From positions 62,001-126,000 of the forward strand of contig NZ_PQVF01000003.1 of assembly GCF_002920915.1 (NCBI RefSeq): a stretch of DNA of 64,000 nt, in the 5' to 3' direction. The translations under genes were made by a program, and so were the position numbers. This DNA comes from Solitalea longa. Lineage in GTDB: Bacteria > Bacteroidota > Bacteroidia > Sphingobacteriales > Sphingobacteriaceae. Below are positions 22,238-28,217 of the stretch, one piece after another. The notes under the pieces are model-generated. The model saw nothing but the letters and a program-made list of their open reading frames with translations. It was not told the origin of the DNA and made no database searches. Position 1 is the stretch's first letter. Each line of letters starts with the position of its first letter.

Positions 22238-22825
22238 CTATTTATGTCTTTTTTCTAGATTTTGAGCAATTTCAGTTAATGAAAGCCCTTTTTCGCGAAG
22301 CAAAACTATTAAATGGAAAACAAGATCAGAAGCTTCGTTAATTAAATCTTCACGTGTTTCATTCAGTGCGGCAATAACCGTTTCAACACCTTCTTCACCA
22401 ACTTTTTGGGCAATTTTATTTAAGCCTTTTTGGCGTAGTTTGTTAATATATGAGCCCTCCTGAGGGTTTTCGAAACGATCTTTTACTATGTTTTCCAGTT
22501 CAAAGATGAAGTTTTGATTGTATTCGGTAAAGAAACAGCTTCTTGATCCGGTATGGCAAGTTGGGCCCATCGGATTGGCTTTGATTAAAATGGTGTCATT
22601 ATCGCAATCTTCATGAATACTTACCACATTTAAAAAATTGCCACTCTCTTCACCTTTGGTCCACAAGCGATTTTTTGAGCGAGAAAAAAAAGTAACCCTA
22701 TTTTCGTCTTTGGTTTTTTCATATGCTTCGGTATTCATATAACCTAACATTAAAACCTCAAGTGTTTGGCTGTCCTGAATAACGGCAGGAACTAATCCGT
22801 TTATATCTTTTGAAAAATCGATCAT
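22238..22825 (-). CDS. hisI: Bifunctional phosphoribosyl-AMP cyclohydrolase / phosphoribosyl-ATP pyrophosphatase HisIE
   Basis: 195 residues. The HisI part holds the metal-binding segment EDCDNDTILIKANP and GPTCHTGSRSCFF. The HisE part (about 105-195) is helical with GEEGVETVIAALNETREDLINEASDL. It performs steps 2 and 3 of histidine synthesis. It is the last his gene of the operon, 41 bases after hisF. Confidence 0.96.
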   Translation of the reverse strand: MIDFSKDINGLVPAVIQDSQTLEVLMLGYMNTEAYEKTKDENRVTFFSRSKNRLWTKGEESGNFLNVVSIHEDCDNDTILIKANPMGPTCHTGSRSCFFTEYNQNFIFELENIVKDRFENPQEGSYINKLRQKGLNKIAQKVGEEGVETVIAALNETREDLINEASDLVFHLIVLLREKGLSLTEIAQNLEKRHK

Positions 22826-22866
22826 GTTTTTTGTTAACTGCTAAAGCGAAATTTTATATAATTATT

Positions 22867-24009
22867 TTATCTCACTACAATACCTTGTTTCTTTAACTCC
22901 GCTTTTAGGTCGGGGATTAGTATTTCGCCATAATGAAATACGGAAGCAGCCAAAGCAGCATCAACATTTGTTTTGTTGAATACCTCAGCAAAATGCTCCA
23001 TATTTCCGGCACCACCTGAGGCAATTAATGGAATGGTCAGCCATTGATTGATTTCGCCTAGTAGCTCACAATCGAAACCGTTCTTAGTACCATCGTGGTC
23101 CATACTGGTTAAAAGGATCTCGCCGGCACCCCGATCTTGTACTTCTTTGATCCAATTCTGTGTTTGCAATTCGGTAGGCAAACGACCTCCGTTTAAATGA
23201 ACGATATGCCCATTGTTTAGCCTTTTGGTGTCAACTGCAACTACAATAAACTGGCTCCCAAAACTATCAGCAAATTCGTTAATTAATTGAGGGTTACGAA
23301 CAGCTGCTGAATTAACAGATACTTTATCAGCGCCTGCATTTAACAAGAGATCAGCATCAGCCAACTCGTTGATACCTCCGCCAATGGTAAAAGGAATGTT
23401 AATGTTACGGGCAATGTTTTTTACCAACTCGGCTAAGGTTTTTCGTTTCTCATGGGTGGCTGTAATATCCAGAAAAACCAATTCATCAGCTCCTTGTTCA
23501 GAGTATTGTATGGCCAATTCTACAGGATCTCCGGCATCACGAAGTTCTACGAAATTTATCCCCTTAACAGTTCTTCCGTCTTTTACGTCGAGGCAAGGGA
23601 TTATACGTTTGGCGAGGCCCCCTTGCCCCCTAAAGGGGGAATTGGCAATTGCTATATGTTCTTTAATTTTTTCAATCACTTTTTCAGTTTGTTTAATCAC
23701 CTGATTATTTGTAAATCGTATTGTTCTAATTCCATTAAATAAAAGCTCCCTATCTCTTTCTTGATCATATAAGATTTGTTCGGAATTATTATGAATAGAA
23801 CCATCTACTTCAATAATTAATCGAGCCGCATGACAATAAAAATCTGCAATGAAATTGGCAATAGGATGTTGGCGTCGAAACTTAACTCCTAATTGATTCT
23901 TTGCTAGGTAATTCCAGAGAACAGATTCTGCTTCAGTAGGACTCGTTCTATGCTTTTTAGCATTAATGAAATTTATCCCCTTAGCCCCCATAAACATTTC
24001 GTTTTTCAT
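22867..24009 (-). CDS. hisF: DUF559 endonuclease-like domain fused in frame to imidazole glycerol phosphate synthase subunit HisF
   Basis: 380 residues, about 130 longer than normal HisF. Residues 1-118 are a complete DUF559 domain ([33 protein letters not shown]), a Vsr-like PD-(D/E)xK nuclease fold. Residues 122-131 ([10 protein letters not shown]) are translated from the inserted element's terminal repeat. HisF begins at L132, its normal codon 2, as [14 protein letters not shown] with the catalytic Asp at D141. The normal Met has been replaced by Gly131, so HisF can only start inside the element: at ATG 24009 as a fusion, or possibly at GTG 23679, giving a 21-residue extension. HisF makes IGP and AICAR from PRFAR with ammonia from HisH. 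Confidence 0.9.
23616..23643. repeat. Terminal inverted repeat, hisF-side end of the DUF559 element
   Basis: 28 bp, starts GGCCCCC, core CCCCCTAAAGGGGG, ends AATT. It is translated as NSPFRGQGG in the fusion protein. Confidence 0.75.
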
Positions 24010-24023
24010 ACACTTAGAATAGC

Positions 24024-24051
24024 AAAGTCCCCTTTAGGGGATTTAGGGGCC
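24024..24051. repeat. Terminal inverted repeat, hisA-side end of the DUF559 element
   Basis: 28 bp; its reverse complement starts GGCCCC, has core CCCCTAAAGGGG and ends TTT. It abuts the hisA stop codon TAA (24054-24052). Confidence 0.75.
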
Positions 24052-24801
24052 TTACAACGCAACTAACGACTGTAAATTCCAGTGTTTTATTTCTTCGATA
24101 CTAACCTTACCTTCATAAATAGCTTTGCCAACAACAGCTGCCTCACATTTAATTTCTTTCAGTTCTTCCAAATCATGGATAGAACTAACACCGCCTGAAG
24201 CTATTAATTTGATGAATGGCTTATGATCTAACAGTTTTTTATATAGTTCAACACCGCTGCCGGTAAGTTTACCGTCTTTGGCAATGTCGGTACATAAGAA
24301 GCGGAAAAAGCCGAGGTTGGTACAGCGGTCAATATAATCCATTAGCTTAATAGGCGAAGACTCCATCCAACCTGAATACTTGATCACCTCATCTAAAACA
24401 TCAATAGCAACAACCACCTGATCAGAGCACTGATATTGTCCGCATACTTCTTTGCTTAGGTTCTCCAAAAAACTAGGATCGGTAATAGCCTGGGTGCCTA
24501 CAATTACACGGTGAAATCCAATGGTTAATAATTCTTTCACCTTATCTATGCTTCGCACCCCACCGCCATATTGGACTTTTATATCATATTTTTTGATAGC
24601 ATTTAAAACATATTGCTGATTACTGAAGTCGCCTTTAGCGCCATTAAGGTCAATAATATGAACAAACTGAGTTCCTGCCGAAATGTATTTTTCAAGCATT
24701 TCTTCCAGGCTAACATCATAAACAGTTTTATCGTCGTATTTCCCTTCACGAAGGCGTACAACTTTTTTGTCCAGGATGTCGATTGCAGGTATAACGTACA
24801 T
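24052..24801 (-). CDS. hisA: Phosphoribosylformimino-AICAR ribotide isomerase HisA
   Basis: 249 residues, beta/alpha barrel. The N-terminus MYVIPAIDILDKKVVRLREG carries the catalytic Asp (D8), and YGGGVRSIDKVKELL and LIASGGVSSIHDL are the two phosphate-binding half-barrel motifs. It isomerises ProFAR to PRFAR. It lies 17 bases after hicB and directly before the DUF559 element. Confidence 0.96.
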   Translation of the reverse strand: MYVIPAIDILDKKVVRLREGKYDDKTVYDVSLEEMLEKYISAGTQFVHIIDLNGAKGDFSNQQYVLNAIKKYDIKVQYGGGVRSIDKVKELLTIGFHRVIVGTQAITDPSFLENLSKEVCGQYQCSDQVVVAIDVLDEVIKYSGWMESSPIKLMDYIDRCTNLGFFRFLCTDIAKDGKLTGSGVELYKKLLDHKPFIKLIASGGVSSIHDLEELKEIKCEAAVVGKAIYEGKVSIEEIKHWNLQSLVAL

Positions 24802-24818
24802 GTTTAAGTTTTTTAGTT

Positions 24819-25031
24819 TTAAGCAAATATTAATTTACCCTTAGGCTCAGGAATAGGTCTTCCAAGCTCTTTGGCTGTTTCAATCCATTGATCAATTACT
24901 ATATGAACATTTTCTAATGCCATTTGATGACTTTCTCCATCAGCCATACATCCAGGCAATTCCGGAACTTCTGCAATAAATGAATTATCGGTTTCGCTCC
25001 AGTAGATAATTATTTCATATTTAGTTTTCAT
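24819..25031 (-). CDS. hicB: HicB-family antitoxin
   Basis: 70 residues. The segment YWSETDNSFIAEVPELPGCMADGESHQMALENV is the typical HicB partial RNase-H-like fold. There is no room for a separate C-terminal DNA-binding domain, so this is the short form. It overlaps hicA by 11 bases. It would neutralise HicA. The pair sits inside the histidine operon between hisH and hisA. Confidence 0.88.
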   Translation of the reverse strand: MKTKYEIIIYWSETDNSFIAEVPELPGCMADGESHQMALENVHIVIDQWIETAKELGRPIPEPKGKLIFA

Positions 25032-25281
25032 CTTTTAAGAGTTTATATTTTGTAATCAATTCTCTTACTTGTTTAACCTGATAAGGTTTTGCCTTGCCAT
25101 CTTTAGGCTGTAAGTTGATTATTTCTGAAATATCTTCTTTGTAAAATATATAATGACTTCCTCCAGAGTTTCTTTGAATAAAGTTCAATTTTAATAAAAG
25201 CTTTACAAGATCATCAAAATCAATGTTGTTATCTGAATTCCCTGAAAGTATCTTATTAATTAGTTTTTGAAATTTACTCAT
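25021..25281 (-). CDS. hicA: HicA-family mRNA interferase toxin
   Basis: 86 residues. The C-terminal dsRBD-like part GGSHYIFYKED with its conserved His, followed by KPYQVKQVRELI, is typical of HicA, which cleaves mRNA. The N-terminal 25 residues are a helical extension. Gene order hicA-hicB with overlap is canonical. It starts 9 bases after the hisH stop, so it is probably transcribed with the histidine genes unless an internal promoter exists. Confidence 0.88.
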   Translation of the reverse strand: MSKFQKLINKILSGNSDNNIDFDDLVKLLLKLNFIQRNSGGSHYIFYKEDISEIINLQPKDGKAKPYQVKQVRELITKYKLLKDEN

Positions 25282-25290
25282 TTACTACAC

Positions 25291-25971
25291 TTACAATTTT
25301 GCAAAATTCAGTAATAGCTGCTCACCGGCTTTACCCGATTTTTCGGGGTGAAACTGAACTCCAAAATAATTATTTTTTTGTATTGATGAAGCGAATGTTA
25401 ATCCGTAATCGCTTGTGGCTAAGCTATATTCACTACTGTTTTCGAGATAAAATGAATGTACAAAATAGAAATAGCTGCCTTGTTCAATGTCTTTAAAAAG
25501 TGTGGCCACATTTACCGCATTTACACTGTTCCAGCCCATGTGGGGTATTTTAAGGCTCTTATCGGTGAACTTCAATGTTTTAATTGGGATGATATCTAAC
25601 AATGGCGTTTCACCCTCTTCAGAAAATGTTGAAAGTAATTGCATTCCCAAACATATTCCTAAAACAGGCTTTGAAGTCTGCTTTAGCAAAGGAATTAAAC
25701 CGGTGGCATTCAGTTGTTTCATGGCCGGACTAGCGTGTCCCACACCCGGTATGATATAACGCTCGCAAGTATCAAAATCTGATACAGTGTTGATAATTTT
25801 ATAGCTGATACTCAGGCGATCAAGTGCACTGCAAAGCGAAAAGATATTTCCTGCTCCGTAGTTAACAATACCGATGCCCCCCAGATCCCTAAAGGGGGAA
25901 TTGGTTGATGCTTGCTGTTCTTTTATTTCTTCAATCACTTTTTCTGAATTTAAAATATCTGAAATAGTCAA
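25291..25971 (-). CDS. hisH: Imidazole glycerol phosphate synthase glutaminase subunit HisH, with element-derived N-terminus and no ATG
   Basis: HisH proper starts at its normal codon 2 as IGIVNYGAGNIFSL; the nucleophile Cys lies in GICLGMQLL and the C-terminal His-Glu in FHPEKSG. It supplies ammonia to HisF. The normal Met codon is gone: Gly encoded by an inserted element precedes Ile. The frame upstream has no ATG; possible starts are TTG at 25971 or GTG at 25938. From GTG the extension is 21 residues, VIEEIKEQ...NSPFRDLGG, the same length as the matching tail in the DUF559-HisF fusion (14 of 21 residues identical). Confidence 0.9.
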   Translation of the reverse strand: MTISDILNSEKVIEEIKEQQASTNSPFRDLGGIGIVNYGAGNIFSLCSALDRLSISYKIINTVSDFDTCERYIIPGVGHASPAMKQLNATGLIPLLKQTSKPVLGICLGMQLLSTFSEEGETPLLDIIPIKTLKFTDKSLKIPHMGWNSVNAVNVATLFKDIEQGSYFYFVHSFYLENSSEYSLATSDYGLTFASSIQKNNYFGVQFHPEKSGKAGEQLLLNFAKL

Positions 25972-25994
25972 AAGTTCCCTTTAGGGGGTAGGGG
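25876..25994 (-). mobile_element. Short internally deleted relative of the DUF559 element, between hisB and hisH
   Basis: 119 bp. The left end (25876-25902, starts GCCCCCC, core TCCCTAAAGGGGG, ends AATT) and right end (25971-25994, AAAGTTCCCTTTAGGG then GGTAGGGG) match the ends of the element at 23616-24051. The 63 bases next to the hisH end encode the same C-terminal tail as the DUF559 gene. The nuclease domain is missing. This is the structure expected of a MITE-like non-autonomous derivative. It abuts the hisB stop codon and hisH codon 2. Confidence 0.7.
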
Positions 25995-27131
25995 TTACAA
26001 TACTCCTTTAGTACTTGGTAACGAGAGATTATTTGCATCTCTTTTAACCGCCATTTTTATTGCTTTTGCAAAGGCCTTAAATATAGCTTCTATTTTGTGG
26101 TGCTCATTTTGGCCCTCTGCTTTAATGTTCAAATTGCTTCTTGATGCATCAGAGAATGACTTGAAGAAATGGAAGAACATTTCGGTAGGCATTTCGCCAA
26201 CCTTTTCGCGTTTAAAATCAGCGTCCCAAACAATCCAGTTTCTGCCGCCAAAATCAATGGCTGCTTGCGCCAGGCAATCATCCATCGGTAAGCAAAAGCC
26301 ATAACGCTCCATACCGCGCTTATCGGTTAAAACCTTTGCAAAGGCTTCTCCCAACGCAATTCCGGTATCTTCAATGGTATGGTGTTCATCAATATGTAAA
26401 TCGCCAATGGTTTTAATTTTTAAATCGATGGATCCGTGACGGGCAATTTGCTCCAACATGTGATCGAAGAAATGGATGCCCGTTGAAATTTCGGCTTTGC
26501 CTGTTCCATCTAAATTTAATTCGATGGTAATATCCGTTTCCTTGGTTTTACGTTCATGTTTCACTGTACGTTCGCCAAGTTTCAAAAACTCATAAATTTT
26601 TGCCCAATCAGTTGACTCAAGCGCAATGAAGTTTTTAAGCTCTTCGGCTTTATCCTTGATCTCACCATTACCTAACCCTCTGTTTTCATTTAACCAGATG
26701 GCTTTTGCACCCAGGTTTTTTGCTAACAGAACATCCGTGATCCGGTCACCCAAAACAAATGAATTTGCCAGATCATACTTGGTAGTGTCAAAGAATTCAG
26801 TTAATAAGCCGGTATTTGGCTTACGAGTTGGCGCATTGTCTTTAGCAAATGTTCTATCGATGTAAACACCACTGAATTTTACACCTTCGTTTTCAAATGC
26901 TTTAATGATAAAGTTTTGAATTGGCCAAAAGGTTTCTTCAGGTAATGATGCTGTTCCAAGACCATCCTGATTAGTAACAATTACCAGTTCGAAATCGAGC
27001 TCACGGGCAATTTTACCCATGTATTCAAATGCTTTTGGATAAAACTCCAGTTTCTCAAAACTATCTACCTGCTCATCTGCAGGCTCAACAACCAAGGTTC
27101 CATCTCTATCAATAAATAATACTTTTTTCAT
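25995..27131 (-). CDS. hisB: Bifunctional histidinol-phosphatase / imidazoleglycerol-phosphate dehydratase HisB
   Basis: 378 residues. The HAD phosphatase half begins [14 protein letters not shown] with D8 and D10. The dehydratase half begins near residue 190 and contains the metal-binding [14 protein letters not shown] and [16 protein letters not shown], and [15 protein letters not shown]. It catalyses steps 6 and 8 of the pathway. The fused form is also known in enterobacteria and Bacteroidota. It lies 30 bases after hisC. Confidence 0.97.
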
Positions 27132-27161
27132 ATTATGCTTAGGTGCAGTTTATGGCTTAGG

Positions 27162-28217
27162 TTAAATAACAAATTCTTTAATAGCTTTAATGAGAGCCTC
27201 GTTTTCTGCCGGAGTACCAACGGTAATACGTAAGCAACTGTCGCATAAAACCACTTTCGATCGGTTACGGACAATGATTCCTCGATCAACCAAAAAGTCG
27301 TATAAATAATCAGCGTATTTTATCTTAGCCAAAACGAAGTTGGCATCAGAAGGATACACCTTTTCGACAATTGATATTTCTTCCAGCTCTTTTGATAATT
27401 TATTGCGTTCAGTAACCGTCTCCTTAATCCAAACGTTTACCTGCTCAATGTTATTTAGCGCTTCTAAAGCCAATTCTTGTGTAGCCTGGCTCATATTATA
27501 AGGCGGTTTCACCTTATTGTAAATATCAATAATATCCTGACAGGCGAAAGCCATTCCCACGCGTAAAGCCGCCAAACCCCATGCTTTCGAAAGGGTTTGC
27601 AATACAACAAGGTTTGAGTACTCCGTTAGTTCCTGAATAAAGCTTTTCTGACGTGAAAAGTTGATGTAAGCTTCATCAATTACCACAATACCTTCGAAAT
27701 GGCTTAACACCGTTTCTATATCCTGGCGATCAATTGAATTTCCGGTTGGGTTATTTGGAGAACAAATGAAGATCATCTTAGTGTTCTTATCTATTGCCTC
27801 AGCAATTCCTTCCAGATCTAACTGAAAGTTGTCGAGAAGGTTGACTTTTTTCAGGTTGATATCATTAATGTTGGCTGATACCTCATACATGCCATAGGTT
27901 GGTGGAACGATGATCACATTATCAACTCCCGGATTACAAAAAGCTCTGAATAAAAGGTCGATCGCTTCATCTGAGCCATTGCCTACAAAAATATTCTGAG
28001 GAGGAACCCCCTTGATGGTACTGATCTTTTCTTTCAATTTCCATTGAAGCGGATCGGGATAACGATTGTAAGCAGTAGGCAAAGGTGAGCCAAAACTGTT
28101 TTCGTTGGCATCCAAATAAACACTGGCCTCACCGCTAAACTCATCGCGAGCAGAAGAATAAGGAACCAGTTTTTTTATGTTTTCTCGTAAAAGCGAGTTA
28201 ATATCTATTGTGGTCAT
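27162..28217 (-). CDS. hisC: Histidinol-phosphate aminotransferase HisC
   Basis: 351 residues, fold type I PLP enzyme. YLDANENSFGSP is the substrate-loop start, FICSPNNPTGNS the cofactor-binding loop, and TLSKAWGLAALRVG contains the Schiff-base lysine. It converts imidazole acetol phosphate and glutamate to histidinol phosphate. A 75-base gap of word-like repeats separates it from hisD. Confidence 0.96.
   Translation of the reverse strand: MTTIDINSLLRENIKKLVPYSSARDEFSGEASVYLDANENSFGSPLPTAYNRYPDPLQWKLKEKISTIKGVPPQNIFVGNGSDEAIDLLFRAFCNPGVDNVIIVPPTYGMYEVSANINDINLKKVNLLDNFQLDLEGIAEAIDKNTKMIFICSPNNPTGNSIDRQDIETVLSHFEGIVVIDEAYINFSRQKSFIQELTEYSNLVVLQTLSKAWGLAALRVGMAFACQDIIDIYNKVKPPYNMSQATQELALEALNNIEQVNVWIKETVTERNKLSKELEEISIVEKVYPSDANFVLAKIKYADYLYDFLVDRGIIVRNRSKVVLCDSCLRITVGTPAENEALIKAIKEFVI

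Follow-up and report, generated by a model that had tools for sequence, protein, structure and literature searches.

The histidine operon in the window (the whole 64,000-nt stretch of DNA that was analysed) raises the question of what has taken away the start codon of hisH and from where the protein is now translated. On the minus strand, the hisB stop codon TAA is followed without a gap by an insert that opens with CCCCTACCCCCTAAAGGGAAC and closes with CCCCCTTTAGGGATCTGGGGGGC, after which the sequence reads ATC GGT ATT GTT (IGIV), which is HisH from codon 2 onward. The corresponding junction in the congener G003 (locus L026) is empty and reads TTATAATG ATA GGT (TATAATG ATA), with the hisB TAA and the hisH ATG sharing one base (TAATG). 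Because the empty junction is TAATG, the insertion kept the TAA, lost the remaining bases of the ATG and met codon 2 in frame. The minus-strand sequence and the G003 empty site confirm the first-pass annotation, according to which a 119-bp copy had removed the hisH start codon, HisH resumed at its normal codon 2 and no ATG lay upstream in frame; the insert must supply the start. The features of the junction are as follows.

25876–25994, minus strand: internally deleted (mini) element of 119 bp at the hisB/hisH junction, replacing the hisH start codon (sequence; empty site in G003; end alignment with the hisF element)
25968–25994, minus strand: left end of the mini-element, C-rich arm and hairpin CCCTAAAGGG, abutting the hisB stop TAA at 25995–25997 (sequence and end alignment)
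25876–25900, minus strand: right end of the mini-element, hairpin CCCCCTTTAGGG and GGGGGG, abutting HisH codon 2 (sequence and end alignment)
25291–25875, minus strand: hisH from codon 2 (GATase, PF00117)
25936–25938, minus strand: GTG, likeliest HisH start, 21 codons before codon 2 and relic of a DUF559 Val codon (conservation in G001, context, homology to the Val codon at 23677–23679)
25969–25971, minus strand: TTG, less likely alternative HisH start (no counterpart in G001; poorer context)

The hisH ATG is likewise gone in the congeners G001 and G002, which carry inserts at the same place, and this shared loss and insertion site rules out an assembly or sequencing error as the cause; the G001 insert is the orthologue of that in the window. 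Among approximately 56 related genomes, approximately 20 have the hisH ATG replaced by a similar right end, and all of these except the window and G001 have an ATG 11–34 codons upstream within the insert.

The start codon of HisH

Upstream of codon 2, the HisH frame has 35 codons without a stop, among which the only ATG, GTG or TTG codons are TTG 25971 (−32) and GTG 25938 (−21), the same two candidates that had been proposed earlier. In G001 the GTG is kept, but a TAA interrupts the frame four codons before it, which leaves TTG 25971 without a counterpart there. By upstream context, GTG 25938 ranked at the 58th percentile among the gene starts of the window and TTG 25971 at the 26th, and the position of the GTG (−21) falls within the 11–34-codon range of the ATGs in similar elements elsewhere. 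Conservation in G001, context and position all point to GTG 25938 as the probable start of HisH. A start at TTG 25971, or one at a non-standard codon through reinitiation that is coupled to termination of hisB, would agree with the TTG being in frame approximately 8 codons past the hisB stop and with the hisF remnants in other genera that seem to use TTG; however, the intervening in-frame stop in G001 and the poorer context make this reading, and the TTG in particular, unlikely, with the remaining probability going to other routes. It is very improbable that HisH is not made, the gene having been dead since the insertion left it without an ATG, as its 194-codon body is intact and constrained (pN 0.075 versus pS 0.60, window versus G001) and approximately 20 relatives carry equivalent inserts with an intact hisH.

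Several further observations were made in and around the operon. Other repeat families (AAAGAACAAAGAGCAAAG and GGCAGTTTGCAG) occupy the hisB–hisH junction in relatives without the C/G-rich element (for example, L126 and L150). At locus L066 (G019), both hisH and hisF lack the codon-1 ATG with no clear element present, and hisH has a GTG at −6. A HicA/HicB-type toxin–antitoxin pair (PF07927 and PF15919; 24819–25281, minus strand) lies inside the operon between hisH and hisA and is missing from the sister genome G001. Elsewhere in the window, positions 633–793 hold a 52-nt repeat in four imperfect copies (of the AACCCGTAATCC type).

The hisF element and its nuclease gene

The hisA/hisF junction of the same operon carries a longer element, to which the 119-bp copy aligns at both ends (approximately 50 nt on the left and 87 nt on the right).

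23617–24051, minus strand: full-length element of 435 bp at the hisA/hisF junction, abutting the hisA stop TAA at 24052–24054, with its last codon, Gly, replacing the HisF Met (sequence; same layout in approximately 40 relatives)
23641–24009, minus strand: DUF559 nuclease domain (Vsr/EDxHD-like) with its own ATG at 24009 (PF04480, 4.5e-29; profile match to PDB entries 3hrl and 3r3p)
22867–24009, minus strand: open frame of the DUF559–HisF fusion, 380 aa (ORF and Pfam; two-domain AlphaFold2 model)
23677–23679, minus strand: internal GTG (Val) of DUF559, proposed earlier as the hisF start (GTG in 3 of 39 HisF-fusion rows; A-rich context)

By this alignment, the 119-bp insert derives from the 435-bp DUF559 element by internal deletion and is no free MITE. 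The first-pass annotation had called it MITE-like, having compared only the last approximately 73 bp (a direct repeat) of both copies; of that label, the inverted ends and the origin by deletion from a longer element stand, whereas the parent encodes a nuclease and no transposase, and no target duplication was seen. Because the hisH copy shares homology with the final approximately 87 bp of the hisF element, GTG 25938 and GTG 23679 correspond to one Val codon in the last helix of DUF559. The counterpart at the same distance that had been pointed out therefore exists, with a different explanation from the one offered, namely descent from a single codon of the nuclease gene. Nor is there support for the suggestion that both proteins start at an element-supplied GTG: this is likely for HisH, whereas DUF559 is fused in frame to HisF, so that HisF has an ATG at 24009, forms the C-terminal part of the 380-aa frame and contains GTG 23679 as an internal Val.

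The same arrangement recurs in relatives. The first 115 DUF559 ORFs analysed included 41 DUF559–HisF fusions with frames of 332–431 codons, nearly all of 378–431. At the 39 HisF-fusion junctions compared, the C-rich left end usually lies within a few bases of the hisA stop, the DUF559 ORF brings an ATG of its own, and the HisF ATG has given way to a right end of the CTCCCCCTTTAGGGGGCGGGGGG type. A GTG 21 codons before the junction was present in only 3 of these 39 rows, from two genomes, and was rejected as a conserved start device of hisF. An AlphaFold2 model of the fusion (8 sequences, mean pLDDT 73) consists of a nuclease-like domain, a disordered linker (residues 123–132) translated from the right end, and the HisF barrel; a Foldseek search with the fusion returned matches dominated by HisF structures and added nothing on DUF559. 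The upstream context of ATG 24009 is weak (11th percentile among window gene starts), whereas that of GTG 23679 is A-rich (87th percentile), so that some of the HisF might come from internal initiation at this GTG.

DUF559 elements and their short relatives in Bacteroidota

As a rule, mobile elements stay out of essential genes or remove themselves by splicing. The nuclease element described here has become a fixed part of core enzymes, among them leucyl-tRNA synthetase, HisF and guanylate kinase, and its short relatives would give genes new start codons and N-terminal tags. The phenomenon is real and larger than first stated, and its strongest parts are facts of the sequence. PF04480 matches 142 of the 301 family genomes and 152 of the 346 genomes sampled from the phylum. 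The best-scoring matches, whose proportions are not those of a random sample, gave 214 non-redundant DUF559 ORFs, with 140 fused in frame to host proteins and 74 (about a third) standing alone; fusion is therefore not obligatory. The domain is internal in 79 ORFs (inverted ends found in 65), N-terminal in 54 (41), C-terminal in 7 (7) and alone in 74 (51), giving inverted ends in 164 of the 214. Its Asp, Glu-x-Asp and His residues are invariant. The fusion partners form 23 groups, and those named by Pfam are HisF, LeuS, IcmF, an Lhr-like large helicase, MetH, TruB, HsdR, type ISP enzymes, guanylate kinase (Gmk), IspF, tRNA nucleotidyltransferase/poly(A) polymerase, riboflavin synthase, amino acid kinase, saccharopine dehydrogenase, RecQ, a PurL-like protein, HsdM and a solute-binding protein.

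LeuS has two insertion sites, with filled and empty alleles at each, and its palindromes are read as peptide (LTPTLSEGEGA... and ...SLSFGEGRGEA). A single LeuS (L141, 2947–6666) contains two DUF559 domains, at residues 326–438 and 720–832. Site 1 also holds short in-frame derivatives of 39 codons (L123, L165 and L176), which represent, within an essential gene, the same decay as at hisH. In the LeuS genes of L073 and L076, additional repeated coding palindromes (PPQPPEGGSAN and TPPSGAGGN) surround the DUF559 insert, which suggests other in-frame repeat families. In L255, from a record titled Patescibacteria, riboflavin synthase contains a DUF559 domain flanked by strong inverted ends, which may reflect spread beyond Bacteroidota or a binning error. 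We found no account of DUF559 elements inside LeuS or HisF in the open-licence literature, an absence that is not proof; nuclease-carrying elements in frame within or before essential genes are apparently a widespread, undescribed family.

Short copies are abundant in some genomes. An exact 23-letter right-end pattern occurred in 10–44 copies in each of seven genomes of genus g14 and its reversed control in none; chance resemblance of the element ends was ruled out on this recurrence in many genomes against zero for the reversed pattern. Many of the g14 copies are intergenic and leave the neighbouring ATG untouched, and several separate an upstream gene from a gene that has no native ATG, with an ATG of the element approximately 16–27 codons upstream. 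The start-replaced genes, named from their conserved N-terminal sequences, include murD, argC, thrB, trpG/pabA, comB (in two genomes), an ABC transporter gene and others, as well as hisB in G001. This survey was made by single-end analysis, a strict paired-end regular expression having missed most pairs. In most relatives, the native start of TrpG is ATG AAA directly before the conserved core. The TAATG overlap is the visible empty state at hisB–hisH and is also found before murD in several genera; in MurD relatives the picture is noisier because the native N terminus varies, with further inserts alongside the overlaps. We infer that TAATG is a preferred target. Start-codon annotation in these genomes can thus be wrong. 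The open-licence literature yielded no description of start-codon-replacing elements in Bacteroidota, which again is not proof of absence. A comB-like gene at L313 (796–1578, minus strand) has two tandem right-end palindromes at its replaced start, where an element has inserted for a second time at that codon.

The homing proposal, its alternatives and known systems

The DUF559 tree clusters by insertion site, requiring 7 changes for five sites as against 51–62 in shuffles. Between the window and G001, synonymous differences in the DUF559 part of hisF are low (pS 0.153) compared with 63% in hisB, 60% in hisH, 62% in hisA and 72% in hisF (Fisher p 4e-16 to 5e-10 for DUF559 versus the flanking his genes). 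This contrast of 15% with 60–72% indicates that the hisF element of the window arrived or was replaced at the exact site after the split from G001 and has thus moved recently. The window and G001 are the best such case: across 51 close same-site pairs, the pS of DUF559 was below that of the host gene in 13 and not lower in 38, so a general rule by which DUF559 is younger than the gene it sits in was rejected. Most same-site pairs look vertical, and movement at the same site is accordingly occasional. Site-specific lineages and horizontal spread to the same site, the pattern of homing endonucleases, were both found, the latter in a minority of pairs.

Our main reading, to which we give a probability of roughly 60%, is that the hisH insert is a decayed copy of a DUF559 nuclease element that spreads by homing without splicing, with host translation starting inside the element. 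In its intact form, the element consists of a nuclease gene of the Vsr/EDxHD type (DUF559) flanked by inverted ends with hairpins. The nuclease probably cleaves the element-free allele, and repair would copy the element in. Intact elements would last where the ORF stays in frame, either replacing a start codon (HisF) or inside a gene (LeuS, IcmF and MetH); the host protein would then carry the nuclease without splicing, and the open frame would keep the element harmless. Short derivatives may spread or decay from the intact element. At start-codon sites, the element removes the ATG, and translation would begin at the DUF559 ATG 24009 for HisF and at the relic Val codon GTG 25938 for HisH. The wider proposal is more tentative, at somewhat short of an even chance: non-splicing homing elements would occur throughout the phylum and survive as in-frame parts of essential proteins, and those of the start-codon mode would hit TAATG operon overlaps, delete the ATG and provide a start and an N-terminal peptide of their own; core enzymes would then depend entirely on element start codons for their translation. 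If homing is confirmed, it would add to introns and inteins a third way for a nuclease to persist inside conserved genes, and would account for many odd N termini and ‘DUF559’ fusions in Bacteroidota that annotation has left unexplained.

Ordinary transposition by an unrelated transposase acting in trans, in the manner of MITEs or REPs and with DUF559 as a passenger, would fit the numerous short inverted-end copies in some genomes and the resemblance of the hairpin ends to REP and IS200 ends. However, there is no second gene within the elements examined, DUF559 lineages track insertion sites as expected of a site-specific nuclease and not of a random transposon, and the empty and filled sites compared have no target duplication; we therefore consider transposition in trans unlikely. 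Less likely still is that DUF559 is a domesticated host domain, such as a repair or defence nuclease, fused for its function, with the palindromes as coincidental spacers. The fused domain is under purifying selection (median pN/pS 0.24), same-site fusions persist across genera, and a DUF559 protein, VsrA, acts on the Caulobacter chromosome (PMC12907096), all of which favour domestication; yet the partners have no common function, occurrence is patchy (any match in 142 of the 301 family genomes), most copies have inverted ends, nuclease-free short derivatives sit at the same kind of site, and the hisF element has moved recently. An intein was rejected because Pfam scans of the fused proteins found only DUF559 and host domains and no Hint domain, and a group I or II intron because 22800–27300 gave no Rfam match and the ORF is continuous with that of the host.

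The homing reading is consistent with the relationships of the nuclease. Against the PDB, the DUF559 profile matched 3hrl, a strong DUF559 structure, at 9.6e-32, followed by 3r3p, a ‘mobile intron protein’, at 5.6e-7. We take 3r3p to be I-Bth0305I, an EDxHD homing endonuclease reportedly treated by Taylor et al. in 2011; the EDxHD, or Vsr-like, homing endonuclease family is said to go back to Dassa et al. in 2009. Two papers support this identification of 3r3p (PMC3943268 and PMC9403480), and a DUF559 gene is filed under EDxHD in the second (PMC9403480). The DUF559 elements share with these endonucleases a homologous nuclease fold, as judged by profile, and conserved acidic and His residues, and would likewise use a small nuclease to drive their own spread into the element-free allele. 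Whereas the known EDxHD examples are in group I introns, in inteins or free-standing, the DUF559 elements lie in the host frame with no intron or intein and have hairpin inverted ends.

Like MITEs and REP/BIME sequences (RAYT/IS200–IS605), the short forms are non-autonomous and multicopy, with inverted hairpin ends and a longer coding parent: terminal inverted repeats are present in both window copies and in 164 of 214 DUF559 copies, and the longer parent has the same ends. They differ in that the parent encodes a Vsr-like nuclease in place of a transposase, a DUF559 nuclease being all that the hisF element encodes; in their in-frame, start-replacing placement; and in having no duplicated bases when the empty site (TAATG–codon 2) is compared with the filled one (TAA–element–codon 2).

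In logic, the closest analogue of the DUF559 elements is the yeast WHO element, although its nuclease is an intein-derived LAGLIDADG enzyme unrelated to DUF559. WHO elements home into FBA1 without splicing, replacing part of the gene with its function kept (PMC7282813). WHO replaces the 3′ end of FBA1, whereas the DUF559 element is bacterial, has hairpin ends and replaces the start or sits inside the gene. In-frame palindromic inserts in protein genes (LeuS, HisH and others) also recall the Rickettsia palindromic elements, which, in the part of the source consulted, are described as in-frame inserts in unrelated metabolic genes that are tolerated as extra peptide (PMC10969869). The likeness is one of description, with no claim of membership: the Rickettsia elements are approximately 150 bp long and no nuclease-coding parent is mentioned in that part of PMC10969869, whereas the DUF559 elements have such a parent, and their short forms often take the place of a start codon and would supply a new one.
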